Under the pieces are notes generated by a model, which ran no database searches, was not told where the DNA came from, and worked only from the letters and a program-made list of their open reading frames with translations. Below, piece after piece: positions 6,840-35,908 of a stretch of DNA of 64,000 nt. Origin of the DNA: Sarcocystis neurona (taxonomy: Eukaryota > Apicomplexa > Conoidasida > Eucoccidiorida > Sarcocystidae); the NCBI GenBank assembly GCA_000727475.1, contig KL647312.1, positions 1,116,001-1,180,000 of the forward strand. The letters run 5' to 3'. Position numbers and translations under genes: made by a program. Positions within the stretch are counted from its first letter, which is position 1; each line of letters starts with the position of its first letter.

Positions 6840-7368
6840 TTATTCTCCTCTCTGTGGATTAGGGAAGACAACCACATGCGTCGCATTTGCGTAGAAGAAT
6901 TGCCTGCTGCTGCTGCTGTCAGGAACGTATCCTCCTGTTCCTTCTTCTCCATTGCTGCTACCAGAAAAGGGAGAGCAAGAAGAAGAGGCGGGAGGGAGAG
7001 GCGGAGGTGGAGGAGGACGAGGAAGCGGAGGCGTAACACCACCAGCTGCTGTCGCTTCTTCTTCTGCTGCTGCTGCTCTTCCTCCTTCCCGTTTATCTTC
7101 CCCCAGCCAGTCCTGTTGCTGCTGCTGCTGCACGTGCAGCAGCCGATACAGCTGATCCGACGTCAACAGCAGCTCCGACTCTAAGTTGCCGCTTTCCTCT
7201 GCCGGGTTGCGTGTCTCTGCTGCAGGAGCAGCGGGAGGGGCAAGGGCCGCCGCCCCAGCAGCAGGGAGAGAAGCCGCCGCAGCAGCGGCAGAAACACCGG
7301 CACAAAGAGGAGGTGAAGGAAGAAGAAGAGGCGGAAACCCGGCAGCAAAGCGAGGTAGAAAAGAAGCT
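6840..7368 (-). CDS. TRAPPC11: TRAPPC11-like exon N, terminal exon with stop
   Basis: The acceptor GCTGCCGCAG leaves one base that completes the Arg codon opened by exon M; 175 further codons and a TAA (6840-6842) follow. Ala-rich and Pro-rich tracts surround SDQLYRLLHVQ and the end RQFFYANATHVVVFPNPQRG. The last part resembles the final strand of TRAPPC11 (an xFIPTSIFVKPQG-like end). Alternative acceptors in the same exon give a different phase. Confidence 0.6.
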
Positions 7369-10300
7369 CTGCGGCAGCGCAGACGAACCATGGGAATGCG
7401 AAAGGCACCTGCCCTGCACGCGCATGCACACGGAGATTACTCGAACAAAGAGACACTGAGGAGAAATTCAAGAAGCTCAAGGACTAAACATACTTGCGCC
7501 CAGGTGTAATGCGCCTCACACGTGGTACGGAATGTACACGAATAAACATATATAGGTATGTATGTTTCTATCTCTTCATCCATTTGTATGCATGTATACA
7601 TACATAGAAGCACATCCATCAATATATTTACACACATGCGTATATATAAAAGTGTATACACATATGGGTATATACGATCAGTCTCTCAGTACGTTTGTAT
7701 ACACATTCATACATACGTATACCGATATGCATCAATGTATCATATACACATCTACGTGACGCTCTTGACGCATTCATATATAATATACACGTACACATGT
7801 ATAGACGTATATACATATCATGCTTGTACTATATATATATATGGTGCTCCGTACACATTTGTACAAATGTGCATACACAAAGGCTCGTATTTGTAAATTC
7901 ACGCGTATGTGTGTATGGTGGTGTTGACTTCCCCTCCAAAGACACATCTGCAGGCACGAAGAAAATCCTCAACTCATGCAGCTCTATCTCTACGCACGTA
8001 TATATATGCGTATATATTGATATACAAAGAGATACACAGATAAGCACAAACACACGTACATCGAGCAGTGGAGACGTCTCCCTACATGTGGATATGTGCA
8101 GAGATATATGGAAGCTACACACAAACACACACGAGTTCATTATATATATACATACATATACATATACAAATGCAGGGTATACGGAGAGACCAGTGTACAA
8201 CTCTCTGTACACCCACATACACATTTATAGAGAGAGAGAGTGAGAGAGATGGATATGCAGGGAGAGAGAGACGGATATTTATATATGTATAGATATAGGT
8301 ATACATACAGACAGGTAGATGGATGGATATGTGCATGTATACACATATATATATATAGACAGATTGATAGGTGGACATATAGATAGATAGATAGATAGGC
8401 AGATTTATATGTGTATCCAGAGGTGTATGGTAATGGAAGAGAGAGAGAGACAGAGACAGACAGAGGCAGTTCTTCACTGATATGTACTGGGCTTTCTACA
8501 CATTCCTGCTACTACATACCCCAGCCGCACATGTATATATATATATATAGAGAGAGAGACAGACAGACATATAGAGAGATCAATAGAAAGATAGATAGAT
8601 GGATAGATAGGCAGGCAGGTAGGTAGACAGATAGATACATAGACAGGTAGATAGATAGGTAGACAGGTAGATGAATAGGTAGTCCACTAGACAGATAGAC
8701 AGGAGGACAGATACATAGACAGACAGAATACATAGATTGATAGACAGACAGAGAGACGGATCAATAGATAGAGATATCACTAGGCAGAGAAACAGATAGA
8801 TAGATAGAGAGACAGATACTATGTGCCCGCCGAGGTCGAGGGTGATGCGTATACGTCCAGTGGGGGAGGCGTGCTGCTGCCACGTGGGAGGAGTGATAAC
8901 AGCCAAACGCGCAGAACGGCAATCGCTGCTGACTGATCCAGAGAGCTGCTGCCACGCTGCTGCCACGTGCGACGTGCTGCGGCTTTTTTTTTTCTTCGTA
9001 GGTACCTGCGAGCAACGCAGGTCCACTGCAGTTGCAGGGAACGCCGCGGCAGCAGCAGCACGGTTGCGCGGAGGCCCCCGGCAACGAAGAAGGGGAAGTA
9101 GTCTCTCTCGGATGTTGCTGCTGCTCCTGTTGCGGCTGCTCCTCCACCTCCTGGTCCTGATCCTGTTGGGACTGCTGGAGCACGCTCGCGCGTGCTGCTG
9201 GTGCTGCTGCTGCACATCGCAGACGCCTCCGCGTCGTCCTCCTCCTCCTCCTCTTCGCCGACTCCGGGCCTCGCCGCCGCGCCGCGCTGCTTCTGCTGCT
9301 GCGGCACGAGCTGCTGCCACAGCGACTGCTGTTGCCGCTGCTGCTGTGGCTGCTGCTGAGGAGGAGGAGGCAGCTGCTGAGGAGGCTGCTGAGGAGGTTG
9401 CGGCTGCTGGTGTTGCTGCTGCAGCACAGGCGCGCGCCCACCAGCACCACCAGCTCCCCCACACCCCGCAGGCAGAAGCTCGACAATGCCTTCCTACACG
9501 AGGACACCCCATACACAAGCAGCACCAACAGCAGCAGCCACAAAGCTGCGATACGAGACATATATGTATATATATACGTGTACATATATATATATATATA
9601 TATACGTTCACATATGTCAGCCTCTCTCTCTCTGTACACATATACGTATATTTCTCTCCTGTACACAGTTTCCTCTTGCCCTCTCCCTCTCTCTGCACAT
9701 ATACATATATGTCTGTATACATTTCCCTCTTTAAATATAAATTGTATGTATGCATGCTACCTATACACATGTGCCTCTCCATAGGTATATCTCTGCATAC
9801 ATATATATGTGTATGTATAGATATGTGTATACTTCACTCTCTCGATATATATATATATATATGATATTCTCTTCGGTAATGTGTATATATATATATGTAT
9901 ATGCACACAGGTATGACCTGTCGCTTTGGAGGAATATATGTATAGTTCTGTGTGTATGGTGTATGTGCAGAATTATACGTGTACGTGGATCACACACGAA
10001 GAGGCCGCATGCAGCACGACCTCGTCCAGCTTCTGCTCTGCTGCTGCTTCTGTCCGTCCTACAGTCCCTGTCGTCCCCACGTTGCTGCTGCTAACACTTC
10101 CCCCATGTCCTGCCGCACTTTTCGTCCTTCTCCTGCTTTTCGGCTGCTGATGTTGTTTTTCTCGGCTGCTGCTGCTGTTGCTTTTCTCCAGCTCGCTTTG
10201 TTGCTGCTGCAGCAGTTCATATGCTGCTGCTTCTATCCTGTGCTGTTTCCTCTGTGCGTCAGGTGCTGCTGCCTCTGCTCTCCAACGTCTTCCTCCTGCC

Positions 10301-11673
10301 ATCCCTCGCGACTCCCCCACTCCCCCCCCTTCCTGTGGAATACAGAAGTCCACTTCTGCTGCTGCTGCTACCACCTCTGCTGCTGTTACCACATCTCCTT
10401 GCTGCTACCGCGTCTGCTGATGCTACCGTTTCTCCTGCTGCCACCGCATCTCCTTGCGGCTACCGCGTCTGCTGCTGCTACCGCGTCTGCTGCTGGTCTC
10501 CCCCGCTGCTGCTCCTTTAACTGCTGCTCGTACGAACATTTCTCTTCTGCTGCTGCTGCTGACTATCCTTGTGCAGCGAGTGTTGACTTCGCTGCTCTGC
10601 TGCGTCTGCTGCTTATTGCGAACTTGTTCCTGCTCTTCCTGTGTCTTGCGCCGCTGCTGTTCCTCCTACTGTTGGGGGTCTTCGCAGTCCTGCTGGTGGT
10701 TCTGCTCCTTGGCCTGCTGCGTACCTGAGGAAGGGCAGTGCGATTGAAAATGGTGGCTGTCAGAGAAAACGGCACTCCGACGGTCGGGCAGCAGCAGTGC
10801 GACACCCGCAGCACCACGGGGTCGTCTTCTCCTCCGCACGCACGTCGCACATCCGCAAGGCGGAAAGGAAACTGCAGCCATTTCACGCAGCGGCAGTACG
10901 GAGAAGGAGAACAGCAGGGAGACTTTATCGCAACACGCAGCAGCTCCCGCACCGCATCAGTAGCAGCTGCGGCAGCAGCAGGGGCACCGCCAGCGACAGC
11001 CGCGGCGGCAGCAACAGCAGCAGCGCCAGAAAGAACACTCCCGTATGGACAGCAACAACACAACAGCAGGAGCGGAAGCAGCGCCAGAGACGTGCAGGGA
11101 GCAGGCCCACAACAAGCAGCCGCAGCAGAAGNNNNNNNNNNNNNNNNNNNNNNNNNNNNNNNNNNNNNNNNNNNNNNNNNNNNNNNNNNNNNNNNNNNNN
11201 NNNNNNNNNNNNNNNNNNNNNNNNNNNNNNNNNNNNNNNNNNNNNNNNNNNNNNNNNNNNNNNNNNNNNNNNNNNNNNNNNNNNNNNNNNNNNNNNNNNN
11301 NNNNNNNNNNNNNNNNNNNNNNNNNNNNNNNNNNNNNNNNNNNNNNNNNNNNNNNNNNNNNNNNNNNNNNNNNNNNNNNNNNNNNNNNNNNNNNNNNNNN
11401 NNNNNNNNNNNNNNNNNNNNNNNNNNNNNNNNNNNNNNNNNNNNNNNNNNNNNNNNNNNNNNNNNNNNNNNNNNNNNNNNNNNNNNNNNNNNNNNNNNNN
11501 NNNNNNNNNNNNNNNNNNNNNNNNNNNNNNNNNNNNNNNNNNNNNNNNNNNNNNNNNNNNNNNNNNNNNNNNNNNNNNNNNNNNNNNAAGCAGCAGCAGC
11601 AGGAGCAGCAGAAGAAGCAGCAGGAGCAGGAGCAGCAGCAGAAGCAGCAGGAGCAGGAGCAGCAGCAGAAGCA

Positions 11674-11704
<31 letters not shown>

Positions 11705-11706
11705 AA

Positions 11707-11739
<33 letters not shown>

Positions 11740-14700: not shown

Positions 14701-17700
14701 AAAAAGTCGTCCAGCCACACCTCAGGACAAGTCTGCATACACACCTTTCCCTACACGAGCATCGAAGCACACATATGTGTATATATATATATATACGTAT
14801 GTGGAGACGCGTCCGCATATCTTCTTAACACACGCCTATATATATATATATATATGCTTACGTAAACCAGCAAGCGAGGCCGCTACACCTCATCTGTACA
14901 TCTGTGCACCCACACATGTTTCTACAGACACAGACTCATGTACACGTATATATATATATAACCGTGCGTATAGTCAATCTGCATACGTATACGGACACGT
15001 ATATATATATATATATTGATTTACGTATATATTGATGTATTTATATGTATAGCCATATAAATGTCTGTGGGTGCACATATCCATCCGAGTGGTCACAGTA
15101 CTGGACACGTGTGTCTGCATGTATCTCCACGGCGAGAGAGAGCGCAGGAAAAAGGACGGGGAAGAGCGACTGCCCGTACCGCATGCGTGTAGATAGCGAG
15201 GGACTGGTGGGAGCTGCTGCTGCTGCTGGGGTGAGACAAGGTCGTTGCTGCGAGCAAGTCATTCTCGTGGTCCTCCTCCTCTGCTGCTGCTGGGGAGCGT
15301 GTCCCTGCAGCTACTGCTGCGGCGTTGTCTCTTGCCGCTGCTTCTGCAGCAGCACCGTCGCTTCGTTGCCCCGCTGCTGCTGCTGTCGCGTGCTGCCTGG
15401 TCAAGGCAGCGCAGGAACGCAGGTCGAGCAAGGCACTCCACACGTCCTGCTGCTGCAGCACCGAAGGAGTCCCTTCACTAATAAGTGCGTCTTCTCTCTC
15501 AATCCACCTGGTGCTGCTCTCCCTGTCCTCTTCTACTCCTGCTGCTCTTCCTTCTCCATCTCCCTGCGCAAGGCGTGCTGCTACACCTCCGCCTCCTTCT
15601 CCCGCTGTTGCTGTCCATGTACCTGCTCCTGCTGCTGTCGATGTTGCTGCTGCTTCAATGGCATGCATGACTTCGTCTCTCTCCTCTGTGAAGAGTGCTT
15701 CTCTCCTGCAGCTTGTTTGAGCAGTACGAAGTTTTCTTCCATTGCAACGCTTGCAGCAGTTCTGTCGCAGTTTCGTTGGCTGCAACGCCTCGTCGCTGCG
15801 CTCCGTCGAGAGAGAGCCAACGGCTCCGCTGCCTTCTTCACTCCTTCCTGCGGCTGCTGTTCCACCGACCACTGCAGCTGTTCCTGCTGCTACAGCTACT
15901 AGCTCGTCAGCGGGTGCTCCTGTGTGTGCAGCTGGAGCAGCAGGAGGATTGCCACCGTCTGCTTCTTCGCCGACCACTTGTCCTACGACACCTGCTGCTG
16001 CGGTTGCTGCAGCGTCTTTGCGTACCGCTGGTGCTGCTGCTGGTCTGCTGGCTCCCTCTGTCTCTCCAGCCGCTGCCGTTGGTGAGCTACAGCGTTTCGT
16101 CGCCGTTTCATGTCGGGTGAGCTGCAGCAGACGTACCCCATGCATGCGAAGAGGCAGCGAGGAGGTGTTTTTGAGGTGTACGTACACCAGAGGAAGGTCG
16201 CCTGCTGCGTGCCCGTCGTCGCCGCCGCCAGCTACCGTCAGCGGCGCTGCTCGCAGCTGTAGCTGGAGCGGTTGCTGCAGATTCAAGCGGCAGCTCGCAT
16301 GCAGAAAATACGCAGTTCTACTCTGTTGCCGCTTCCCCTCTTCTCCTTTCCTTGCAGCAGCTCTGCCTCGCATGCCTTCAGTTATACCGCCGTCGGCGAT
16401 GCCCCCTGCTGCGTCAGCCTCTCCCCCTGCTCTTCCTGCTGCTCCACCTGCTGCCCCTCCTGCTGCCTGTGGAGTCCTGGCTACAGCCTTGTCCTGCTGC
16501 ATGCCATTGCTGCTGCTGATGGGAGAAGGCGCATCAAATTCTAGCAGCGCGTCAATACATACGGCTGTTACTCCATTAGCTGCTGCCCGCAGAAGAAACG
16601 GGATGGCAAAATCCGCTTCTTCGTTCCGCTGCCAACCCGCTACTCCTGCTGCTCGTTTGTCTTCTCTTCGTATCGTAGCACCACGTCGCATGCTTGTAGC
16701 TGCTGCTTCTCCTGCTGCTGCCTCTCTTGCTGGTGCGTCTCCAGCTGCCGCTGCTTCTCCCGCTGCTGTTGTTCCTCCTGCTGTTTCTTCTTCTGCTGCG
16801 TCTCCTGCTGCTGCGTCTCCTGCTGCTGCTTCGCCTGGTGGTGCTTCTCCCGTTGCATTTCCGTCTACTGCATTAGGTGCTGCTGCTGTTGCTGCCCCTG
16901 GGTGGCGTCCTCCGCCTGTTGCTGTTTCTTCTTTTCTGGGTGACAAGTGCTGCAACCGCGCCGCTGCACCAGCAGCCCCAGCAGCAACGGCAGCAGATTC
17001 TGAAGCGCAGCTGCCTCCTGTCACAGGCGTCTGTTGCTGACTGCGGCTGGGCAAGTGGCAGGTACTTTCTTCGTCTACAACAAATGAAAAAACATTTACG
17101 TTTCGTGGCAATGCTGCTGTCTCTGCTTCGCCGCCCTCGTCTCCTGCTCCCGCTGCATGCACGTCTCCCTCTGCTTCCTCGAGTGGCTGCTGTTGCTGCT
17201 GTTCTGTCGGCAGCAGCAGTAGCAGTTCCTGCTGTTCCACTGCCACCTTCTCTTCCCGCTGCTGCTGTTGCTGCCCCACCGTTGCTGCTTTGCTGCTGCT
17301 GCTTGCAGCCCAGGAAGCTTCTGCTGCATGCCGCTGCTGCTGACAATAGCCTCTCGCGCGATAGCGCTGCAGCGCGGCACAGATGCACGGCCCTTCAGCA
17401 GCAGGAGTGGTTCCACTCTTCACAGCCCCAGCAGCAGCACTACTAGCAGCAGCAGCGTCCCATCCACTCCTCACAGCAGCAACGGCCTGGCGACCGGCAG
17501 CAGCAGCGGCAGCATTGTCGTCAGCAGCAGCAAAAGCAGGCTCTCTGCAGGCTTGTGGATGGAAGCAGTATCTGCTGCTGCTGTTGCTGTGCCAGCGGCT
17601 TGTAGGCGGCGCGACATGGACGCCAGCAGCAGTTTCCCCGAACGACACGCGCAGCACAATCTGTTGCTGCTGCTGCCCGTCCTGCTGGTGCTGCTGCTGC

Positions 17701-23700: not shown

Positions 23701-26700
23701 GGCAGCAGCAGCAGATACGCCCTTTACATTTACACCAAATGCATGCGCGAGAGTGCCGTACAGGTCGCACGCAGCAGCAAACCGGCCGCCGACGAAAAAC
23801 GCATCTGCCAGTTGACAAGCCACTGCTGGGCAGGCGCGAGACCCCTTCCCAAGCGTCTGCAGCAGGGAAACAGCAGCAGCAGCGAAATAGCAGCAGCAGG
23901 AAAACAGCAACAGCATTTGACAGCAGGATTCATGTACTCACGTCCCAGTGAGTAGCGAACAGCAGTCGCCGCAGGCGCAGCCGCAGTTGCATGGCAGCAG
24001 CGATGCGCGTGACAGCAATAGCAGCAGAGGGTCAGCCGCTGAGCAGCAGAAGTATCCATCTGCAGCAGCAGCAATCTGCAGCAGCAGCACTCTGCAGCAG
24101 CTGCACCTGCCTGAAGCAGTCTGCGAATGGTAGAAGCAAAGGGGAAGTAACCTACGCTGCTGCTGCTGCTGGCTGAACGAGAAGCCTCTGTGGACCTGAG
24201 GCTCGGTTTGCATCAGACCTCCTGCCTCTGTTTTCCTGCTGCCGGTGCTTCTGCCCATCTGCCGCTGCCGCGTATCACTCTTCTCGCACCTGACGCAGAA
24301 GTCGAATCTGTTTGTTGTTAGTACATATCTGCTGGTGTAGGTATCTTCTTCCGCTACACTGCTGATAGCGACGGTCCCATGTGTCTTGCTGCTCCAATTC
24401 CGTTCTGCAGCTCCTCGACACTACGCTACCTGCTGCGTCTGCGGCCGATTTCTTTCCCTGCTGTTCCTCTCCTCCTTCTTTTTCAAACGCTGGTCTGCTG
24501 CTAGCTTCCCGTTCCACTACCGCTACCCTGCTGCTGCTACTGCTGCCTTCCTTTGGCTGCCCGCACTGCAGCTATCCTGCTGCTGTTGCTGCTCTCCTCC
24601 GCCGCGCCACTGCTGTTGCTACTGCTGCTGCAGCTTTTTCTCCCATGCAGCTGGTTTTGCTTCTGCCCCCGCGGCCGCCACTGGTGCTGCGGCTCTTATT
24701 CATATTCGTGTGGCAGGTGCTGCTTACCCGATATATGCCATGTGCCCGCGAGAGGAGATACGCTGCATGAGCAGCTAGCTGCTGCTCGTTTAGAGTAAAG
24801 ACCCAACGCCGCACAATCTCCTGCTGCAACGCAGCTGCGGCAGTTCTTTCGTCCCCGCCTTCCGTGAGGAACGCTTCCACTCCATGCTGCAACAGCAGCA
24901 GCAGTCGCGGCAACAGCAGCCACAGCAGGCGTCGTTGCAGGGCAACAACAACACCAGCAAACACCGCGCAGCAGGAGCAGCAGTAACGCCAAGAGACAGA
25001 GGAGGTGGAAGAGAACGAGGAGGAGGAAGAACAGTAGCAGCAGGAGTCGTCACAGCGACAACAGCACCACCAGCAGCAGTGTTGCGCGCGTGCGCGCTGC
25101 AAGACGCCGAGCGGCACGAGGAAGAAGAAGAACTGGAGGACGAAAGCGACAGGAGCAGTCGCAGCTGCAGCACCAGGAGCAGTCGCAGCACCAGCAGCAA
25201 TCGCAGTAGCAGCAGCAGCGGCGAAGGTGACGAGGCAGTTATTACACAGGCACAGAAGCCGCGGTGCCGAAGGCCTGTAGCGCGTCCACGACGCCCGCTG
25301 CCCGCTGACGGCACTGCGCGACTCGCACCCTTTCAAGTGCAAAAATCTCCTCACGGCAGCTGCAGCTGCCCTTCCGTGCACCACCCATGCCTCTCCTTGT
25401 CGAAAGAGACAAACTGATACAAGCGTGCCGCCGCACCCGCACTTCCGCAGAGCCACTCGACAACAAAACGTTCCCGTCCCCCTTCCCCCGCCTTGCGCAA
25501 ATCTTCGCGATTTCCACACATAGGTAGAAGACTCCGGCAAACTCCCCTCCCCCCCTATACCTGGAGAACAGATACGTAGAAGACTTGGGCAGGCAGATTT
25601 ACGCAACGACGCGGAGTACACAGTACATGCCAAACTCCTCGCACAGTCCGCCACTACACTGCTGGGACTGCCAGTCGTTCGGCTTGTAGATCGAATCTTG
25701 CCTCCCCCGACCACAGAGCCGCGCAGGAGACGCAGGCATATCCCTGCCCTTCCACTCCCTCACGCATACTTCTCATTCTAACTTCCGCCGTGACAGTCGC
25801 AGACACGGCCCCACGCACAGACATACCCCCCAGGCTTCTCCACTGCCGCATGCGAACAAAAGAGCGACCCGTGAGGCGGCGCAGTGGCTGCGCGACGGGT
25901 GCGTGTCTGTCGTTTTATCTCGCCAGCGGCTCTGCTGCTGCTGCCGTCCTCCCCACACACACGCACACCCGCACCGCGTCACTGCATGTGTCTACAAGTG
26001 TAGCCAGCCAGACACGCGTGTCCGCGTCTAGACACGCCCGCAGGTGGTGTTCGTCTCAACGAAGTAGTCCTCCCCCTCCTCTTCACTCCTGAAAGCCCCA
26101 GACAAGCCTCACGGGGGAGTGTACCGATGTCTACATACATGCGATTGCCCCTGGGCACGGGCGGCGACGTCTCCAGGTAGGCGATCGCTGCTGCGTATAT
26201 GTGTGGGTGTGTGTGTGAAAGGCTATGTATGGGCCGCGTAAACATGAACAGGTCATACAGACAGAAAGAGAAGGAGGAAAGACAAAGAGGTGAGTCTCTG
26301 TCTGCGTATTTGTATACGGGCAGAGACGTGAGTAAGCGTGTATATATTGGGATGCCTGTACCTTTAGATATGCAGGGGATGCCTCTGTATATGTGTGTGT
26401 GTGTGTGTGAACGCGGGTGAATTTCACGTGTGCCTCGATGGCCCAAATGTATACGAAGAGAAGACGAGAGAAAAAGAGAAGGAGAGAGGGAAAGACAGAC
26501 AGAGAGAGAAAGAGCGGGAAAGAGAAGCGGGGGGAGAAAAACAGGAGAGAGACAGACAGAGAGACAGGTTGCAGAAAAAGGGAAGCGCAGGAAGGGAAAG
26601 AGGGGAAGGGAGGGAAAGTGAAGGAGAGAGACAGAGAGAGCGGGAAAGGGAAGGGAGGGAAAGGAAGGGGAGAGAGACAGAAAGACGAGTAGAGACAGAG

Positions 26701-29700
26701 GGAAAGAGAGGGAGAGGGGAAGGGAGGGGAAGGGAAGGAGGGAGAGACAGAGAGAGGGAAATAGAGGGGGGGAGAGAGACAGAGGAAAAGCGAAGGAGAG
26801 GGAAGGGGAAGGAGAGGGGAAGGGAAAGAGAGGGAAGGAGAGAGACAGAGAGAGAGAGCGAGAAAGCGAGGGGGAGAGAGAAAGAGAGAGCGGAATAGAG
26901 GGAGAGAGAGAGGGAAGGACGAGTAGAGACAGAGGGGAAGAGAGGGAGAGGGAAAGGGAGGGAGAGGGGAAGGGAAGGAGAGAGACACAGAGAGAGAGAA
27001 GGCGAAGGGGAGAGAGAGAGGGAGAAATAGAAGGGGACACAGAGAGAGAGAGAAGAGGAGAAGGAGGAGAGAGCGGAAGAGCGGGAGGGAGAGATAGAGA
27101 GAGGGCCGCAAAGAGAGAGAGAGAGGGAGAGGCAGAGAGGAAGAAAAGGACGCGATGCCTTCCGAGAGGAGACGCGTGTCTATTCAAAGTGTCGTTCGGT
27201 GGGCGTGCAGGGGGCATGGAGCCCCATGGGCAGACATGTGTAGACATCATAGAGAAGACAGGGGGAGAGAAAGAGAGGAAGAGGTGCACATATATATAGA
27301 GAGAGAGGCCGATGTAGATATACGGAGGTCTATGAACATGGATAGAGGAAGGCGAACATCTATACAGATAGATCGATGTACATAAACAGATACGCACTGG
27401 AAAAGGAGGGGAGACAGATGTAGACGCAGGGAGAGAGACAGAAGAAGAGGGAGAAGACGAGAAAAAACGGCAGGTGTTGGCGGTGAGGTCGGAGAGAGAC
27501 TGGCGGAAACGAAGGGAGCCAACTATAAATCTTCCGGCCGGCGGAGAGAAGTAGGAAGTGCGTTACGAGACAGACACGTGTGAAGACGGAGAAGAAAGAG
27601 AGGCAGCGAGGAAAGTGTAAAGAAGAAGATAGTGGCTCATAACACCCGAAAGCGCGACGTCTGTGTCGGAGGGGAAGTATTCCTGCGGCAGCCTCATGAC
27701 GCCGTCCAGACGCGGTGGCGTCGTCTGCAGCAGCAGCTGCAGCTCCTCCCCACCCCACACCTCTACTTGCAACACCACTGGTACACCATACGTATAGAGA
27801 GACAGAGAGAGGGGAAGACAACCCGGGAGACAGACGAAGAGAGACAGATAAAGAAAAATACGTACACACACATATATGTACATACATATGCGTACGTATA
27901 CATTCACATATATGCAAACATATATATATACATAGACGAGCACAAAGATTTATAAATGTACCTCGTGTTTCATACATGTATATATGCATATGCAAATGGA
28001 TACATATTTTTGTAGAAGGACATATTCACATACAGGTAAAGAATCACATGTGTACAAAGAGACCTCAACTTCATATATATAGATGTGTGTGTCTTCGCAT
28101 AGGTGCATGCACCGCCCCACAACCAGTCATATGCATATATGTATATATATGCGTCTCCATTTGTTCACGCCTAGGAGTGCGACTTGCGTCGGACCGGTAT
28201 TCGAGAGAAAAAGCGAAACAGAGTCAGAGAGAGAGACACTGGGAGAGAGATTGAGATAGGAAAGTATGTCTCGTCGAAACAGAGAAAGAGAGGAAAAAGT
28301 GTTTCGTCGAACAAGACGGAGAAAGGCAGGAAAGTATGTATTACGGAAAGAGAGCAAGAGAGGAAAGTGTGTTCTGTCGAGTAAGAGGAAGAGGGAAACT
28401 CATGTCTTGTACAATACGAGGGAGAGGAAGTGTCTTTTGTAAGAGGAGAGAGAGGCAGGGAAGAGAAGCGTTTGGCAGTGGCACCTGCAGCGCATCCAAG
28501 CGGCCAATCCACTCGGAGGGCCGAAGTCTGCCCCCTTTCATCGACGGTGCCGGCAGCAGCTTCTTGGCCTGCTGGAGCCAACAGCGGAGATCAAGCCAGT
28601 AGCGCGCAGCAGCTTCGAAGTGATGGGCAGGATTTTCCCATGCTCTTTCGACCGAGGAGAGCTGCAACAAAGACGTCAGGCGTTGCGCAGCAGCAGCGGC
28701 AGCCAGCAGGTCTTCTTCCGCTGGGTCCGTCCCCCCACCACGCTTTTCCGCATTCTCCCTCCTCGCTGCGGTGTTGCTGCTGCTGCTGCCGTCGAACGGC
28801 TGCTGGCGCTGCTGCTGCAGCCGCTGCAGCAGACGCTGTCCTCCCCCCTGCACCTGCTGGCCTGGAGCTGCAGCAGCGCTGCAGCCCTCCCCGTCGACGT
28901 CCAATGCCGTTCCTCCTCCTGCTGCTGCCGCAGAACTGAGAGACGCGCTGGCAGCAGTCGGAAAAAAGGGAGGAGGAGGAGGAAAAGCTGTGCGTACACC
29001 CGAAGGAGTCTGCAGGCGGGACGGAGTGCTGCTGCTGCTGCTTCCCGCACTGCCGACAGGCGGCCCTGGACGGGGGAAACGTTCCGCCTGCCCCACCTCG
29101 ACGAGCAAGGTCCCCCAGTCCTCCTCCCGCTGCAGGTGTTGCTGCGCTTCTGCTTTCTCCTCCTGGTGCGACTGCAGCAGCGGGAATGCCGTCTGTTCTT
29201 GATGCTGCTGCACCTCCGACTCACGTTTGAACGGCGAGGGTCCCGTCGCCCTCCCCGCAGGCCCAGCAGCATCAGGCGTCGCAGCACCGCCAGAGATACC
29301 CACAGCAGAACCGGCTCTACGGAGGACAGCAGCAGGACTGGACTGCGTTGCAGCAGTAGAAGAGGAGACCCCAGCAGCAGCAGCAGCGTTAGGCGAGGGG
29401 ACAGGAGGAGCAGGAGGCGCGAAGGAGAGGAAAAAGTAATCTTCGAAGAGGACAGCAAGAGCCTCGTGGAGCTCTGCCATCCACAGCGGCAGCAGAAACT
29501 CCAGAAGCGGATCAATAATATTTTCTCTTATCACAGCGCGATGTTCTCGGAGGTGGTGAGCCGCCTTCTGCGGTTCCTCCGCATGCAAGTACATGCGGTA
29601 CATATGGATCGAAATCATATTGCAGAGGGCCACGCGCTCTGCTGCTGCAGCACCTGACAGCAGCGCCTCGTCCGTCAGCAGCTGCCACGCAGAAATAAAG

Positions 29701-32700
29701 CATTTCATCGCGCCGTGCAGCTGTCCCGCGACCTCCAGCATTACCCCTGCCTTCACAAAGCAGCGCGTCTGCAACACGGCAGCAGCGTCAGGCCAGAGCA
29801 GCAGCGCCAGCCACACAGCAATGAAAGAAAGGCAAAAGAGCAACACCCGCGTCGTGGTGTCGTAGTCGCACCGCAGCAGAAAAGACACGCAGCAACCCCA
29901 CTGCAACAGCAGCAGCAGCAGCTGCAAGAGAGAAGCGTCGACGTGGATTGCAGCAGCGGCAACACCACCAAGTGAGAACGAAAGATAGCGGCGGCAACAC
30001 AGTCGCAGAAGAAGCAGCAGCAGCAAGATATCCACAGCCCAGAAAGGTAACAGCAGCAGCACAAGACTATCACAGCCGCAGCAGCAGTCGCCGCAGCAGC
30101 AGTCGCCGCAGCAGCAGTCGCCACAGCAGCAGTCTCCGCAGCAGCAGTCTCCGCAGCAGCAGTCTCCGCAGCAGCAGTCTCCGCAGCAGCAGTCTCCGCA
30201 GCAGCAGTCTCCGCAGCAGCAGTCGCCGCAGCAGTGAACAACGCAGCTTCGGCAGGAAGATATTATAAAGCGACACGGGAGAAGCGCCGGTCGTGTCTGC
30301 AGGAACGGTAGCGGCGTCAAGCAAGAAGCTTCTCGGGGCGACAAGCACCAGGTGTCCAGCGACAGCCGCCGCAGCAACAGAAGTCTCTTTGTACATACGC
30401 AGGAAAACAGAACTCCGTATGCAAGGCTCTACCGAGGGCCGCACCGAGTAAATGTGCGGGCAAAACTGTCTTTGTACAACCCAGTCAAAAAACGACATAT
30501 ATACACACAGGTAATATATTTCTGTTTCCCTCGGCGATGGACCAAGACCAGCAGGTACACACCAACAGGTAGAAAGCGAGTCATGTGGAAAGACGGCTGA
30601 AGAATATACGGAGAAGTCATACGGTTAACGCATGCAGACGACTGGGTGACTTCCTGCCGAAACAGAGTTGTTCACATCTACCCGCATGTATATATACATA
30701 TATTTACAGGCACAGCGTATGCAGCGACACCTACCCTTATATACGCTTGTACACGCCTACGACGACGGCACATACATACACATACTTATATATATATACA
30801 TGTATGTAGATGCGGTTGTATGTATGGGATACTTGCCACATATAGACAGAGAGAGATAAGAAGAAGAAGACGGAGCGCGACAAATATATATATTAGCTGT
30901 ATGCAGAAGATGCAAGCACATGACACGAATGTCTTTGCAAGGTGAATATTGAGAGAGAACAATTTTTCGCAGTAGAGACTCCTCACCTGATAGGCATGCA
31001 GAAGACTGGCTTGCTCTTTTGCTAGACTACGCGGCACGTGCTGGAGCTGCTTCCGGTAGCGCCGTGCCTCCGCTTCGTAGCGCTCCACGGCCTTCTCATA
31101 TGCGACCTAACCAACAACCACGCGGCAGCAGCACCGACAGCAGCAACAGCAGGAGAAGCAACAGCAACAGCAGCAGCCGTGTTCGCTCTTACAGCACGGG
31201 CACTTCTTGCAGCAGCAACAGCAACACTGAGACCAGCAGATGGTGCAGCAGCAGACGCACGGCAGAAGCAGGAACTGAAAGAGTACTAGCGACAGGAATA
31301 CCCCAGGCCACGAAGACGCAGGAGCAGCGGGTAGGACATGAGTTAGCTACACGGCGGCAAGAGCCGCAGCAGCAGCAAAAGAGAGAGAGGGAAATAGGAA
31401 GAGATGGCAAGACAGAAAGGGGGAAGAGAGACAGAAAGAGAGAGGAAAGAAAAAAGAGCAAGATAGAGGACAACGGCTACATTTGTGGACCCTGCTGTCT
31501 CTGTATATAGAAAAGAGAACGAGCATAGTAGTTATAATACTGACACACACGAACACAGTTTGACCACGCACGTAGATAGATGTAGTATGTAGTGAAACAT
31601 CTACATTTCTGGAGGCAAAAGGAAGGAGAGGGTGACGGCCAAAGAGAGGACGGGGAGGAGAAGAACAGAGAAAACGAATGAAAGACGCGATAGAGGGAGG
31701 AGACGGAGAAGGTAAGGGACTCCAGAAGAGATAAGGATCTTCGGAGAAGAACGCCAGAGAAAGAAGAAGAAGACGAGGAGGACGAGCAAGAAGGACAACG
31801 AAGAAGAAAAGGAGCTGCTGAGCGGAACAGCTCGAAGAAGAAGAGGACGAAGAAGAGGAAGAGGGGGAGAAAGAACCGAAAAAAGAAGAGACCGGAGAGA
31901 AGAAAAGCGGAAAGGAAGCGAGAAGGAAGAAGAGGAGGGGAAAGGAGAAGAAAGAAGCGGGATCGCAATAACCTGCTGAAGGCGCTCGATTTTCGTTGTA
32001 AGACCGTCGAGTCCGCAGGTCAAAAAGAGAGCAGCAACTTCTGCAGGATTCAGAGACCGGAAGCAGCCGGCGCAAGTCTGCGGGTCCGGATGGCCTGCCG
32101 GGAGGATCACGAAAAGGACCTGCAGAAAAAGAGAAAAAGAGACCGGAGATCAAGAGAAAAGAAGACAGTGAGCAGGGGAAAAAAGCGGGAGAAAGCGAGA
32201 GACAGAGACAGGGAGAAAACAGCACGGGCGAGAAGAGACGAACACGGTGGTGAAGATGGGACGTGTCTGAAGGCGAAGAAGCGGAGGACAGCGAGGCAGC
32301 AGAAGCGAAAAAGACAGACGTGGCGACTTTTTGACAGGAAGTGGAGAAGCAAAGAAGAAGAAAAGGCAGGCGCGGGATGCCGCCGGACGAAGACGGGATG
32401 AAGGGAAAGGAAAAAACGGAGAGGGCAGGGAAGACGCACAAGGGAAAACAGAAAAGGCGACGGCAGAAGAAGAAGAAGAAGGGAAGACGCGAAGAGGAAG
32501 AAATGGGCACAAGGAGGACCAAATGTCAGGCAAGACGACAGGCAGGCACCGCGGGCAAAAGGGGACACCACACACAAAACTCCGCCGCACAACCACACTC
32601 CATTACCAGCAAAAGCATTTCTCAAAAACGCGCGGCATACCCACCTTTCTATCTATATCTTCTATCTATATTAATCCGTATCTACTTCGCTACATCTATC

Positions 32701-35700
32701 TATACGTCTGTATCTGTCTACCTGTATCTGTCTCCTTCTTCGGACGTATATCTATCGATATCTGTCTACTGTGTGTATCCACTTATATCTATCTGCCTAC
32801 AACCATCTATTTACATCTGTCTATATCTATCTGTCTACATCTGTCAGCGTAGACCAATCTATATCTATCTGCCTCTATCTAGCCGCATTTGTCTCCCGAA
32901 TTCTATACACGTATATCTACATCTAACTCCCCATATCTATCATATCTATCTATTTACTCACATCTATCCAGATGTGTGTCTATCTTTACATTTATCTAAC
33001 TACCAATATCTGCATCTATCTACCTATTCGTATACAGATGTATGCGTGTGGCTGCATCTGTGTAGGGCGAGACGCGGCGACGGTGCGACGCAGAGAGACA
33101 CGGCAGCAAGACGTCTCTTCTCGTAGGAAGATTCAGCTAACCGAGAGACACACACCGGTCTGCTGGAAGGTAAAAAAGCAGTGACGAGAACTGCCCAAAT
33201 GTCGAACATGACCAGGCAGGGAGGGATAGGCGGTGCTCCGAGGAAAATGATTCACGCCAAGAAACAGTTCAAACGGACAGATGCGGCGGCCTTCCACACG
33301 TACACGTATACACACGAATATGTATATACACATGCATATACATGAATACACGTATATGTGTGCACGTACACGAAAATATATATAACTTTGCACATCAGCG
33401 TGTACACAGATCAATATATACATATACACTTGAAAGTGTCTGCATGTATATATATATATATGTGCGTGTGTGGACAAATGTACAGACACACGGGCATCTG
33501 CCTGTATACACATATATATATATATGTACGCGTACGAATACACAGGTAGAGAGAGACACACACAGAAACATACACCCACACGTGTTCACTTGTAAATACG
33601 TGCATTCAAACATGCGCACGTATATATATATATAAGTACACCCAGAGATATATAGTTCTAGCGTGTGACTCTGTAGGGAGACTCGAGCATAACTCTACAG
33701 GACGCTTGTAAGACGCGCAGGCGTACAAGCTTGGGTTGAATTTTTCTCCGTTGAATGCGGTCGCGAATCTTCCCGACGAGGGCCAGCGCTGCTGCTTCTG
33801 CGTACGCCACAGCAGTAGCCCTGTCCTTCGGAGCAGCTGCCCCTGGAGCAGCTGCAACGGCAGCAGGAAGAGGAGTCGCAGCAACGTCAAGCGCAGCCGT
33901 CTCGACAGCAGCGCCGCCAGGAAGGACCGCATGAGGAGATGCAGCAGCAGCAGCAGCACCGGTAAGACCAGCAGCAGCTGCTGAAGACCACGCAGCCTCA
34001 GGGAGATTCTTTTCGGCTGCTGCTGCGCGCTGTTGGTCGGCTTCTGCAGCCCCCGCCGAGAGCAGCCTCTGCTCTGCCGCCACTGCTGCTGCATCTCTGC
34101 TCCCGCTGCTGCTGTCAAAGACAGTCAGCCCGCCGTCCGCAAAGGTGCTGTCGTGCTGCTTCTGCTCGGAACATACACCGCCGCTGCTACTGCCGCCTGC
34201 GTGCGAAGAAAGCGACAGGGCTCGCCTCTGCGACGGGCAGCCCGAATGTCGCCGGCAGCAGAGAGGGCTGCCGCAGAAGTGCGCTGCTGCATCTTCGCGT
34301 ACGGCAAGACCACCACTCCCCTTCGACACCCCCACAGCACCAGCAGCAACTTCGAAGCTGCTGCTGGACGAGCTTCCCTGCTGCTGTTGCTGCTGTTGGG
34401 GACGACGCTGCTCCGGCGCAGTCTTCCCGCTCTTGCCGGCTGCAGCCGCGTACGGACAGCAACTGCAGCACACCCCTGCTGCTGCTGCGTCCAGTCCAAC
34501 TCCTGCTGCAGCCCTACGACGGCTGCCGTCGCTGCTGCTGCTGCTCGCCGTGCGCGAGGCCGCCACCGCAGCAGAAGTCGCATCAGAAGACAGAGGAGGA
34601 GAACAAAAAGAAGGAACGTGGGCACCGGTAGAATAAGCTTCTCGCCAGTCGAAGCAGAGGATGTACGCAGCAGGTTTCTCCCAGACCTGTCGCTGCAGCC
34701 AGTCTCTACGAAGAATGCCCTGCATGAACAGCAGATCCAGACAAACAGCAGCAGCAACAGTGGCAGCTCACCGCGACAGACGGTCATACAGGCACCGTAT
34801 AGAACTGCATTTGTGTATCTCTGTATATGTGTGTGTGTCTCGATCTTCGCAGAAGTATGTATGCTTGACGTAGGGAAAAATAGGCTGTTATTCAACTGGT
34901 ACAGTCATTCTCTGAACTGTCGCAAGTTTTCTGTTTCTTCGTGTAAAAGGCGCTTCTCCAGAAGGCGTACCTTCTTGACAGGCGAACGTACAATCACTAC
35001 AGAGACAGCGATAGAGGAAAAGACAGCCCTAGGAAGTCTACGAAAGTCTCGCACCAACAAGATGTACAAATGCTTACCTATACACACACATGTACATACA
35101 TACGCATAGATATGGAAACGGAAGCACACGGATATATACGTATTTACAGGTACTTATATACATATCTATATGTGCAAGTACACAGGCAAAGATACAGAGT
35201 TCTTCAAGAAGGAAAGCTCACTTTGTCCGCAGAGCGTTCGGCACGGTCTGGCGTCCTGGCCCTAGCTGAAGCGGCAAGGGGGGAGGCTGCTCCAGCCGTC
35301 ACTTTGCCGCCGCTCCCTGTTGCTGCTGGATGACTGCTGTTGCTGTTGCTGCTGCTGCCAAAGGCAAGCTGCTCCGGCGTTGCCATCTCCGGCAGTTGGA
35401 AGAGGGCACCGGCAGCAGGTACCGCAAAGGCAGGAAGAAGACCGACGCCTGCTGCTGCTGCTGTTGCTTCGGGGCCCGCAGCTGTAGAGACACTCCACGT
35501 CCTCGTCGCCGCGACATTACTCTGCGCCGGTGGATAACGCAGTCCTCCTGCTGCCGATGCTGCTGCGACTCCTGCCCTGGTTGCTTCTGCCGCTGCTGGG
35601 GTTGTTGCCGCTGCGCCTGCTCCTGCAGGCAACAAGGAGTGTGGCCACCCGAATCCTGAGGAGGTGTGCTGCGCTGCCGACGCTTCAAGAGGGGGGCTGC

Positions 35701-35908
35701 CGCTTGCAGCAGCAGCAGCAGCCGCATCGCGACCAGCGGCAGCAGTCCTTGCGCTGGACGCTTCGGCTTCGGAGAAGAGCAGCGTGCTGCTGCTACGGAG
35801 TCCTGCAGCGCTTGCAGCGCCGCGGGAAGAGGCACCGGCTGCTGCCGGACCCCCCTGCGCGGCGATGTCCTCTGGCCAAGCTGCAGGACTACTCGTCGAC
35901 GCCAGTAT
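6840..35908 (-). CDS. TRAPPC11: TRAPPC11-like protein, whole gene span (13 exons placed, 5' end missing)
   Basis: TRAPPC11 is a subunit of the TRAPP III tethering complex that acts in ER-to-Golgi traffic and autophagy. The exons listed separately join to at least 3,538 residues with no stop, and all splice phases agree (phase 0 throughout, except H/I and M/N, which split a codon). Conserved blocks follow the family order: GILRRDWL near residue 230, VLFVILPAGHP near 561, a YEKAVERYEAEARRYRK helix near 610, foie-gras repeats near 650-1130, a TPR-like block near 1131, beta-sandwich patches within 1270-3146, VPFSLTATIFNRT near 3210, and AGGLRATVLLLP near 3335. Animal homologues have about 1,100-1,200 residues; this one is some three times longer because of Ala, Gln, Ser and Glu tracts. 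Introns of 0.5-3.6 kb are filled with microsatellites. The upstream exon(s) and start codon were not found. The family call rests on remembered patterns, not on a search; exon borders are hand-placed. Confidence 0.78.
7440..8220. repeat. TA/CATA-rich microsatellite DNA in intron M-N
   Basis: Repeated tatata, catacata and gtatac units fill this stretch of the intron between the last two TRAPPC11-like exons. No coding signal was seen. Confidence 0.7.
8225..8820. repeat. GATA/GACA tetranucleotide array
   Basis: Imperfect agat, agac and aggt units run for about 600 bases on the plus strand. The array sits in the intron just downstream of exon M. Confidence 0.85.
9006..9418 (-). CDS. TRAPPC11: TRAPPC11-like exon M, C-terminal beta domain
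   Basis: The acceptor TGTGCTGCAG precedes a poly-Gln/Pro start (QQHQQPQPPQQ), an acidic EEEEEEDD run, and then DYFPFFVAGGLRATVLLLPR and RSLQLQWTCVA. The latter fits the family pattern FMFSGxKQxxLxILPGxxxxLxY. The donor CGCAG/GTACCT leaves two bases of an Arg codon, completed by exon N. Confidence 0.72.
10020..10680. repeat. CTG-rich imperfect repeat in intron L-M
   Basis: The plus strand is built of ctgctg units with ctaccgc and ccgtctgctgctac variants (10370-10510). It lies between exons M and L of the TRAPPC11-like gene and is presumed intronic. Confidence 0.7.
10725..10871 (-). CDS. TRAPPC11: TRAPPC11-like exon L, C-terminal beta domain
   Basis: The exon has 49 codons between GGCTGCAG/TTTCCT and CTTCCTCAG/GTACGC, phase 0. 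It encodes FPFRLADVRRACGG, DDPVVLRV and PTVGVPFSLTATIFNRTAL. The last stretch matches the very typical TRAPPC11 strand with a GxPFxxxYxIxNRT pattern. This is one of the clearest family signatures in the gene. Confidence 0.78.
11132..11587. other. Assembly gap (run of N)
   Basis: There are 456 undetermined bases flanked on both sides by CAG repeat, so the gap very likely reflects a repeat the assembler could not span. It falls in the intron between exons K and L. Confidence 0.97.
11588..11945. repeat. CAG array with an 18-bp minisatellite
   Basis: GCA/CAG units follow the gap. From about 11812 to 11935 an 18-base unit (agcagcagaaacagcaac) repeats some six times almost perfectly. Confidence 0.85.
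12045..12300. repeat. ACAT tetranucleotide array with higher-order units
   Basis: Near-continuous catacatacata broken by regular atgcata and atatata interruptions makes irregular larger units of tens of bases that recur several times. Confidence 0.85.
12920..13500. repeat. TA and GT microsatellites in intron K-L
   Basis: Tatata and tgtgtg runs fill the stretch just downstream of exon K (in gene direction). The region 12330-12900 before it is non-repetitive but shows no supported exon. Confidence 0.75.
13526..13615 (-). CDS. TRAPPC11: TRAPPC11-like exon K (30 codons)
   Basis: This short segment lies between CTGCAG/CTGCTA and TTG/GTTTGT, phase 0 at both ends. It encodes LLVEFSKADAVVPYPFDVLQ then QKTPLRRRQL, resembling the family's YIISWKR strand and the following strand before the last beta domain. 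It stands out from surrounding CAG and TA repeats. Support is phase plus position; similarity alone is weak. Confidence 0.5.
13620..14580. repeat. CAG/GCA tract in intron J-K
   Basis: About 950 bases of interrupted gcagcagcaa units. A partial 36-base-scale repeat (gggaagtaacaacaa) recurs at 14420-14540. It lies between exons J and K. Confidence 0.75.
15180..18377 (-). CDS. TRAPPC11: TRAPPC11-like exon J, 1,066 codons, gryzun beta domain
   Basis: The exon is open for 1,066 codons from CTGCTGCAG/GTTCAC to GCG/GTACGG, phase 0 at both ends. Recognisable strands are VHVRKLALLPP at the start, RYRSLRLLDVPAYPLKL, IVLRVSF, AVCIDALLEFDAPSPISSS, and LPLVYVHLKNTSSLPLRMHG, which fits the family strand pair around its DLLSASPWALT motif. 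The rest is Ala/Glu/Gln/Ser low complexity with acidic and basic runs. No stop codon in 3.2 kb of such repeat, only in this frame, supports coding. The largest insertions of the protein lie here. Confidence 0.7.
18490..19480. repeat. CAG/GCA tract in intron I-J
   Basis: Imperfect gcagcagcgggagcagcagcagaa-type units dominate 19050-19330, with looser repeats at 18500-18720 (gcaacagcag). The segment sits between exons I and J. Confidence 0.75.
19569..22002 (-). CDS. TRAPPC11: TRAPPC11-like exon I, 811 codons, gryzun region
   Basis: The acceptor is textbook (TTTTCTCTCTCGCCCACTGCAG) and the donor AAA/GTACGT is strong. The exon starts with one base of a split codon and ends in phase 0. Conserved patches are WEHPTNISGIAAAFQLLNLL (last helices of the foie-gras repeats), YIVEGLLCVEHSLGCTLVV, FFQLLVYLDSF, YKSLRVLALQFTW, REIAYFSLSFPGTPAAI and KPVIHAPVERK, consistent with strands of the gryzun beta domain. 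Alanine tracts dominate between them. On the plus strand the repeat reads CAG/GCA before about 20.64 kb and CTG/GCT after, yet alanine is kept in frame. Confidence 0.72.
23101..23315. repeat. Recent 112-bp tandem duplication
   Basis: Two head-to-tail copies start at 23101 and 23213. The first 100 or more bases are identical by eye. It lies in intron H-I and contains no coding signal. Confidence 0.92.
23441..23856 (-). CDS. TRAPPC11: TRAPPC11-like exon H, TPR-like block plus Ser-rich insert
   Basis: The acceptor is CTGCTGCAG/ACGCTT. The first part encodes CPAVACQLADAFFVGGRFAA and ACDLYGTLAHAF, a helix-turn-helix matching the family's MVQMGEEYYYAKDYTKAL-type repeat. A Ser/Gly/Pro-rich tail follows. 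The end at GG/GTTAGC is chosen because it leaves two bases of a codon, exactly what the strong acceptor of exon I needs; the donor itself is weak, so the 3' border is uncertain. Confidence 0.65.
24728..24886 (-). CDS. TRAPPC11: TRAPPC11-like exon G
   Basis: The exon has 53 codons between CTGTTGCAG/CATGGA and CGG/GTAAGC, phase 0. It encodes HGVEAFLTEGGDER, then EIVRRWVFTLNEQQLAAHAA and YLLSRAHGIYR. The last part matches the family helix written as ITLL.NA..QFKK, and the next exon continues the TPR-like repeat without a gap. Confidence 0.72.
26455..27150. repeat. Long GA-rich polypurine tract (plus strand)
   Basis: About 700 bases are almost entirely A and G on the plus strand (gagagaga, gggaagg, agacaga units). 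For the minus-strand gene this is CU-rich pre-mRNA within intron E-G. Confidence 0.9.
27646..27724 (-). CDS. Possible extra TRAPPC11-like exon
   Basis: An open segment follows CTGCTGCAG and reads TTPPRLDGVMRLPQEYFPSD, then TDVALS, before a possible GTGTTA donor. Base composition and codon mix look coding and differ from the surrounding GA/TA repeats. However, the 79-base length is not phase 0 as exons E and G require (a donor two bases later would be). Treat it as a candidate only. Confidence 0.25.
28485..29768 (-). CDS. TRAPPC11: TRAPPC11-like exon E, foie-gras helical domain
   Basis: The exon has 428 codons, acceptor GTGTTGCAG/ACGCGC and donor CTGCAG/GTGCCA, phase 0. It carries the best-conserved part of the protein: KAGVMLEVAGQLHGAMKCF, then NMISIHMYRMYLHAEEPQKA with HLREHRAVI, then MAELHEALAVLFEDYF, and after a long Ser/Gln/Ala insert ENPAHHFEAAARYWLDLR. 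These match in order the helical hairpins of the foie-gras domain (helix, NYK-like helix, QFRKH-like helix, acidic helix, then YYQQAA-like helix). The insert of about 200 residues between the last two blocks is unusual. Confidence 0.82.
30067..30240. repeat. 15-bp minisatellite, about 11 copies
   Basis: The unit ccgcagcagcagtct (with tcg/tct variants) repeats head to tail with few changes. It lies in intron D-E, upstream of the foie-gras exon. Confidence 0.92.
30987..31106 (-). CDS. TRAPPC11: TRAPPC11-like exon D
   Basis: The exon has exactly 40 codons between TTGGTTAG/GTCGCA and CAG/GTGAGG, in phase 0. The peptide VAYEKAVERYEAEARRYRK continues to EQASLLHAYQ. This matches the helix pair that precedes the foie-gras domain in TRAPPC11 proteins, and runs directly into TRCFVKAGVMLEVAG of exon E. 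Confidence 0.78.
31370..32520. repeat. GA-rich polypurine region around exon C
   Basis: Purine-rich plus-strand DNA fills 31370-31480, 31615-31960 and 32100-32520. Exon C (31973-32119) is an island of mixed composition within it. Confidence 0.8.
31973..32119 (-). CDS. TRAPPC11: TRAPPC11-like exon C
   Basis: The exon has 49 codons. The acceptor is TTTTTCTGCAG/GTCC and the donor CAG/GTTATT; it is in phase 0. The peptide begins VLFVILPAGHPDPQT and ends GLDGLTTKIERLQQ, corresponding to the family's beta-strand followed by a helix that reads on into the tyrosine-rich helix of exon D. It sits inside a purine-rich (plus strand) region, which means a CU-rich pre-mRNA around the exon. Confidence 0.75.
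32640..33060. repeat. TCTA/TCTG tetranucleotide array
   Basis: Imperfect tctatctatatctgtctac units on the plus strand in intron B-C. At 33300-33650 the intron turns to TA/TG microsatellites. Confidence 0.85.
33727..34719 (-). CDS. TRAPPC11: TRAPPC11-like exon B, N-terminal conserved block
   Basis: The exon has 331 codons, phase 0 at both ends, acceptor TTCATGCAG/GGC and donor CTT/GTACGC. It opens with GILRRDWLQRQ followed by KPAAYILCFDW, matching the family block in which GIL, a Trp and then a hydrophobic strand ending in an acidic-Trp pair appear. A 270-residue Ala/Ser/Gln-rich insert follows. The exon ends with VGKIRDRIQRRKIQPKL, which runs into the hydrophobic strand of exon C exactly where the family has its helix-then-strand element. 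Confidence 0.75.
35222..35908 (-). CDS. TRAPPC11: TRAPPC11-like exon A (first well-supported exon)
   Basis: This exon gives 229 codons after a good acceptor (TTTTCTGCAG, then ATACTGGCG) and ends at the donor AAA/GTGAGC. The peptide starts ILASTSSPAAWPED and is otherwise Ala/Ser/Thr-rich low complexity. It ends SADK and joins in phase 0 to GILRRDWL of the next exon, as in the family, where a Lys precedes GIL. No Met suits a start, so at least one exon lies upstream. The frame is chosen from the donor phase; another frame is also open in part. Confidence 0.55.

Follow-up and report, generated by a model that had tools for sequence, protein, structure and literature searches.

The minus strand of a 64,000-nucleotide stretch of contig KL647312.1 (the window) quite probably carries, from 35908 to 6840, a homologue of the tethering subunit TRAPPC11 in which about 2,400 likely translated residues interrupt roughly 1,100 conserved ones. 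The protein is predicted to form one arm of a TRAPPIII-like Rab1 activator at the Golgi. The gene model was assembled, from sequence alone, out of open blocks and GT-AG borders; the minus strand was translated in three frames over 38.7-36.0, 33.7-30.3 and 28.5-4.6 kb, and single frames or the DNA itself were read between these regions. It comprises 12 GT-AG exons (E2-E13) in compatible phases, which encode 3,583 residues followed by a stop. The initial annotation had proposed 13 exons and at least 3,538 residues; its chain of phase-compatible exons stands, here with GT-AG borders and with the counts revised. Its statement that canonical members have about one third of this length also holds, as the model exceeds human TRAPPC11 (1,133 residues) and fly TRAPPC11 (1,320 residues; PMC8204870) in length by a factor of 2.7 to 3.2.

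Resemblance of the core to TRAPPC11

With the inserts left out, the model yields a conserved core of 1,097 residues in 24 blocks. We aligned this core to human TRAPPC11, whose sequence was checked by a 507-bit match to the fly TRAPPC11 chain 7b6h_A. The local score was 246, compared with 90 for 200 shuffles (standard deviation (SD) 16.4, maximum 158; z = 9.5) and 69 for the reversed core. Upon permuting the order of the blocks 200 times, the score fell to 117.5 (SD 19.0, maximum 172; z = 6.8), which indicates that the blocks lie in order. Semi-global alignment gave z of 6.0 and 4.4, the best of 200 permutations reaching 453 compared to 460.5 observed. The first 78 human residues lay outside the alignment, and the C-terminal part was included. 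Against fly residues 8-612 the core scored 195 (shuffles 95, SD 15.1, maximum 150; z = 6.6), and 200 permutations of the blocks scored 114.6 (SD 18.9, maximum 170); the blocks had been defined on the human sequence, though the fly sequence was already in view. The claim of TRAPPC11-type blocks in order was thus borne out with both proteins. The order itself, an alpha/beta domain, the foie-gras solenoid and a C-terminal arm, is that of Drosophila (PDB 7b6h chain A; 7b6r, 7b6z, 7b70) and human TRAPPC11. The human alignment also continued across the E4-E5-E6 joins with small gaps only, and across the phase-2 join of E12 to E13 (GYQQLPSLNINLL) without a gap.

A Pfam search with the N-terminal core returned Foie-gras_1 (PF11817) as the only family (18.7 bits, E = 0.0015, positions 7-123 of 257). 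The raw frame of E6 gave the same family at 16.4 bits (E = 0.008), below the cut-off. A single-sequence AlphaFold2 model of E6 had a mean predicted local distance difference test (pLDDT) score of 48, too poor for a fold search. Similarity to known TRAPPC11 proteins is low, yet the alignments support homology.

The blocks could instead derive from another large arm subunit of TRAPP (TRAPPC8, 9 or 10), as the similarity to TRAPPC11 is low and the fly paper describes TRAPPC11 as distantly related to TRAPPC10 (PMC8204870). We consider this highly improbable. Foie-gras_1 was the sole Pfam family found in the core pieces, the Trs85/TRAPPC8 family matched another contig (C6) and not this locus, and human TRAPPC11 aligned in order along its length, in a comparison that excluded TRAPPC9 and TRAPPC10.

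Probable translation of the inserts and points against the reading

Between the blocks lie 19 inserts of at least 25 residues (2,432 residues in all, 68% of the model), found in all regions of the protein. They are composed of Ala (25%), Ser (12%) and Gly (11%), with Pro, Glu, Gln and Arg at 6-7% each. The insert of 200 residues originally placed inside the foie-gras domain is present, at a length of 246 residues. Pure runs of at least 7 residues number four (three of Ala, one of Gln), few for so much insert; the model thereby contains runs of the homopolymeric amino acid repeat (HAAR) type, defined as at least 7 Ala, Ser, Gln, Leu or Asn.

No in-frame stop occurred in the 2,432 insert codons, as against 33 and 48 stops in the other two frames of the same DNA. 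The 11 introns of the model contained 343 stops in 17,861 codon slots, a rate at which about 47 would be expected in the inserts; the intron poorest in stops would predict 16. We also compared one-step differences around Ala codons. Synonymous differences stood to other ones as 291:354 in the inserts, and 12 CAG-rich stretches from introns gave 84:196 (Fisher p = 1.6e-5); these control stretches were hand-picked, and each was read in whichever frame was richest in Ala (in one tie, the first frame). The third codon position was the most varied in 13 of the 19 inserts. Because in-frame stops were absent and synonymous Ala differences were in excess over those of the CAG-rich introns, the inserts are likely translated.

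Several observations weigh against this reading of the locus. The block limits were set by eye with the human sequence known, which favours the match somewhat, and the Foie-gras_1 score lies below the curated cut-off of 23.3 bits. The C-terminal gryzun domain (PF07919) was not matched by Pfam in two C-terminal core pieces, a search that did not include the beta blocks of E9; of the profile search first proposed, the foie-gras half gave the expected family, below cut-off, and the gryzun half did not. Ten raw stop-to-stop frames also gave chance-level Pfam matches, the best being Mito_fiss_reg on the Pro-rich frame of E13 (16.7 bits, E = 0.009, cut-off 26.3). Neither the N-terminal core nor the E6 frame retrieved a TRAPPC11 chain from the PDB by sequence search. 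The model lacks a start Met, its start codon being unplaced, and for 4 of its 11 introns the summed splice scores stay under 2, though the matrix is general and author-made, so this decides little. As for the inserts, a likelihood test on codon positions, with the core as training set, favoured the claimed frame in just 5 of 19, and inserts 1, 3 and 11 hold in-frame GT-AG pairs of fair score through which the greater part of the first and portions of the other two could be excised. Moreover, the stop-free argument is weakened because a stop is mutationally distant from an Ala codon.

Some of these points would fit a TRAPPC11 gene in which several inserts are spliced out, as stop-free CAG-rich introns or exon parts, to leave a protein of about 1,300-2,500 residues. 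CAG/CTG repeats are stop-free in any frame, so that open frames are weak proof of coding, and introns of the model do contain CAG-rich tracts. The GT-AG pairs in inserts 1, 3 and 11 have sums of 3.7, 4.8 and 6.3, where introns of the model itself span -2.9 to 10.5 (on the author's general matrix), the claimed frame was favoured in few inserts, and E2 is without a conserved block. The counts of stops in the three frames and the synonymous excess over intronic CAG tracts, however, speak for translation. Among the 18 inserts tested for splicing, 3 had no in-frame GT-AG pair more than 60 bases apart in the searched edges and in 12 the highest-scoring pair summed to no more than 1.2, and the introns had a lower GC content (0.41-0.58 against 0.63). 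We regard splicing of the inserts as unlikely and keep to a probably translated, enlarged TRAPPC11.

The F_actin_bind, Ribosomal_60s, DUF1614 and Mito_fiss_reg matches on frames of the gene were set aside as chance-level, all being below cut-off.

Exons, introns and a candidate first exon

Table 1. Exons of the TRAPPC11 model, the upstream candidate, the N run and two TRAPP-related frames elsewhere in the genome (window positions, except where a genome location is given)
Feature	Position	Strand	Content
Tentative first exon	36882..37062	-	MLRLSELGRMTLGLTFTRPISLYALSGRALT, frame change, NVSVFDEIFHQIVV...FLPIY; outside the model, not joined; weak
E2	35222..35908	-	229 residues, Ala/Ser-rich throughout, without conserved block; AG/GT borders, phase 0/0
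E3	33727..34719	-	GILRRDW...FDWREAY and KIRDRIQRRKIQPKL, N-terminal alpha/beta domain; 268-residue insert (34623..33820) between them
E4	31973..32119	-	VLFVILPAGHPDP...NPAEVAALFLTCGLDGLTTKIERLQQ; human alignment
E5	30987..31106	-	VAYEKAVERYEAEARRYRKQLQHVPRSLAKEQASLLHAYQ; human alignment
E6	28485..29768	-	Foie-gras solenoid, first half; contains the 246-residue insert (29420..28683)
E7	24728..24886	-	HGVEAFLTEGG...LNEQQLAAHAAYLLSRAHGIYR; human alignment
E8	23441..23856	-	SRACPAVACQLADAFFVGGRFAAACDLYGTLAHAFG, solenoid helices aligned with the fly TRAPPC2L-binding region; insert 4 then begins
E9	19569..22002	-	Remainder of insert 4, AWEHPTNISGIAAAFQLLNLL (solenoid end), then beta-type blocks and inserts
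E10	15180..18482	-	Beta-sandwich blocks (gryzun-like by position): FYRLQIHQPEE...LLQVHV, DLPLVYVHLKNTSSLPLRMHGVRLLQL; seven inserts, one at 16106..15495
456-letter N run (gap or withheld)	11132..11587	none	Inside the CAG-rich E10-E11 intron, between two CAG-rich tracts
E11	10725..10871	-	FPFRLADVRR...SHCCCPTVGVPFSLTATIFNRTALPQ; human alignment
E12	9006..9493	-	EGIVELLPAG, 116-residue Gln/Glu-rich insert, RDYFPFFVAGGLRATVLLLPRRSLQLQWTCVAR
E13	6840..7413	-	GAFRIPMVRLRC, 150-residue insert, FFYANATHVVVFPNPQRGE, stop
TRAPP-domain core subunit (TRAPPC6-like by eye)	L031, G000:C25:780047-780790	-	Same contig as the window
TRAPPC8/Trs85-type match	L036, G000:C6:1906530-1906757	-	Ala/Ser-rich frame, at least 785 codons without a stop

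All 11 introns of the model are GT-AG. The largest, between E10 and E11 (4.3 kb), has poorly scoring borders, and its run of N could hide an exon. The donor of E8 is also weak (score 0.8), which makes it doubtful how long insert 4 really is. In the intron that follows E8, a 112-bp unit is directly duplicated at 23090-23315 (two copies, 100% match). The membership of E2 is the least certain among the exons; its third codon position is the most varied, Ala makes up 0.31 of its residues and its other frames hold 1 and 5 stops.

Upstream of the model, the candidate first exon reads TFTRPISLYALSG and then, past a frame change at about 36970, NVSVFDEIFHQIVV, its two halves lying in different frames without an intron between them. 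Joined end to end, the halves gave z = 2.8 against the human N-terminus, a score reached by 35 of 2,000 shuffles. Against the fly N-terminus there was no resemblance (z = 0.5, with 562 of 2,000 shuffles reaching the score). Taken singly, the two pieces were unremarkable against the human N-terminus: of 1,582 window segments compared, they ranked 441 and 740. An assembly error, a real frame change or chance are all possible explanations of the frame change.

Elsewhere in the window, a Pfam search of 30 frames (E up to 0.1) gave no match above cut-off. A weak Ferlin_C match was seen at 56110-56973 on the minus strand (19.5 bits, cut-off 29.4).

Inserts across the genome and their possible meaning

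Comparable inserts were found in some other conserved genes of the genome (123.0 Mb). In the TRAPPC6-like frame, 422 codons long and free of stops, about 100 additional codons separate two domain matches. A frame of a CCT-type chaperonin, which we take by eye and from a motif to be CCT1, has about 76 Ala-rich residues ahead of LKWVGLDL. An adaptin frame on contig C29 runs for 1,233 codons free of stops and holds three domain matches, the first and second being about 148 codons apart. Two tubulin frames (383 and 395 codons) were insert-free. The insert-bearing frames were chosen on hints from the genome search and are examples rather than a rate; the chaperonin and the adaptin come from totals of 54 CCT and 22 adaptin matches. 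Apparent same-frame inserts in a CCT on C3 and an adaptin on C1 were dropped, as the reported open frame crosses stops. The TRAPPC8/Trs85-type frame on C6 is possibly a second inflated TRAPPIII arm.

These cases weaken the earlier view that a tethering subunit is unusual in bearing such bulk. Because the chaperonin and the adaptin of the same genome bear similar inserts, a genome-wide cause is indicated, and the bulk is probably a lineage habit that is not specific to TRAPPC11. The insert share of the TRAPPC11 model exceeds that of the other cases read, and its bulk is perhaps special in degree, not in kind.

As to that lineage, the genome gave 20 SAG (PF04092) and 11 alveolin (PF12314) profile matches. 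PF11054 had no match genome-wide, in a search that matched nothing anywhere and so leaves its absence unproven, and four copies of TTTAGGG had none either, in a search that may skip simple repeats. SAG marks the Toxoplasma-Sarcocystis side, and PF11054, an Eimeria antigen family, marks the Eimeria side; on this basis the genome has a sarcocystid look, and an Eimeria origin was set aside. Sarcocystis neurona is tabulated at 128 Mb and 51.2% GC, and the other tabulated coccidia at 51.9-83.6 Mb (PMC5354109).

The inserts likely arose when CAG/GCA-type triplets expanded in exons and subsequently decayed. Eimeria tenella likewise has CAG-derived Ala/Ser/Gln-rich repeats in well-conserved genes (PMC9131526). 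In contrast to those homopolymeric repeats, the inserts of the model are mixed and decayed. A literature search, whose scope left out most subscription papers, gave, among the Sarcocystis papers listed, none devoted to coding repeats in that genus and, for TRAPPC11 with Eimeria, a Toxoplasma study and a chicken study. Six repeat terms were absent from the full text of a Sarcocystis kinase paper (PMC5371900), and the parts seen of PMC8785600, PMC11332336 and PMC12659853 held nothing that alters the TRAPPC11 reading.

Placed between helices or strands, the inserts would be tolerated loops without a fixed fold, and the conserved pieces could still assemble. In the fly complex, TRAPPC8 and TRAPPC11 grip the core like tongs; residues 181-566 of fly TRAPPC11 form the foie-gras solenoid, and TRAPPC2L contacts it at Tyr442-Ile453 and Asp478-Thr486 (PMC8204870). 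By the same arrangement, the solenoid of the homologue would dock on TRAPPC2L and its C-terminal arm would reach the TRAPPC12/13 vertex. The first TRAPPC2L contact, placed by combining the fly-human and human-core alignments, appears to map near the start of E8 and is insert-free. At the second contact, insert 4 (225 residues) would form a loop located between the counterparts of fly Asp478 and Trp484, where fly and human TRAPPC11 have no such insert. Toxoplasma gondii TRAPPC11 (TGGT1_264090), likewise a coccidian TRAPPC11-domain protein, is essential; its signal is mostly cis-medial Golgi, and some is seen further downstream (PMC11559087). By analogy, an essential Golgi role is expected for the homologue.

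The inserts might be functional: as a multivalent brush of low complexity they could extend the tether's reach or, through phase separation, enrich TRAPP at the Golgi. Two thirds of the model is insert, spread over all its parts, and repeat-rich proteins have been discussed as condensate formers in the refractile bodies of Eimeria (PMC10081493). The similar inserts in the chaperonin and adaptin point instead to the genome-wide cause, and we find the functional explanation quite improbable. Its specific form, a TRAPPC11 of about 366 kDa in which the 225-residue insert, within the TRAPPC2L contact, changes the way the arm docks on the TRAPP core while the other inserts make up a multivalent, TRAPP-concentrating Golgi brush, seems very improbable. 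We believe that the bulk is probably a tolerated by-product of a repeat-rich genome, with no new function.

The PF11817 profile search of the whole genome returned zero candidates, the TRAPPC11 locus itself also being missed. A 2013 comparison found that Apicomplexa keep the core TRAPP subunits well and TRAPPII sparsely, with TRAPPC11 unnamed in the main text (PMC3785458). Because profiles barely detect inflated genes of this kind (a sub-cut-off 18.7 bits on the core, and a missed locus genome-wide), some reported gene losses in coccidian trafficking complexes may be misses. If transcripts confirm the model, it would amount to a natural experiment in extreme insertion into conserved machinery, with 24 pieces and 19 inserts showing which helix and strand joints accept up to about 270 extra residues, and it would place Eimeria-style inflation by coding repeats in a sarcocystid-looking genome.

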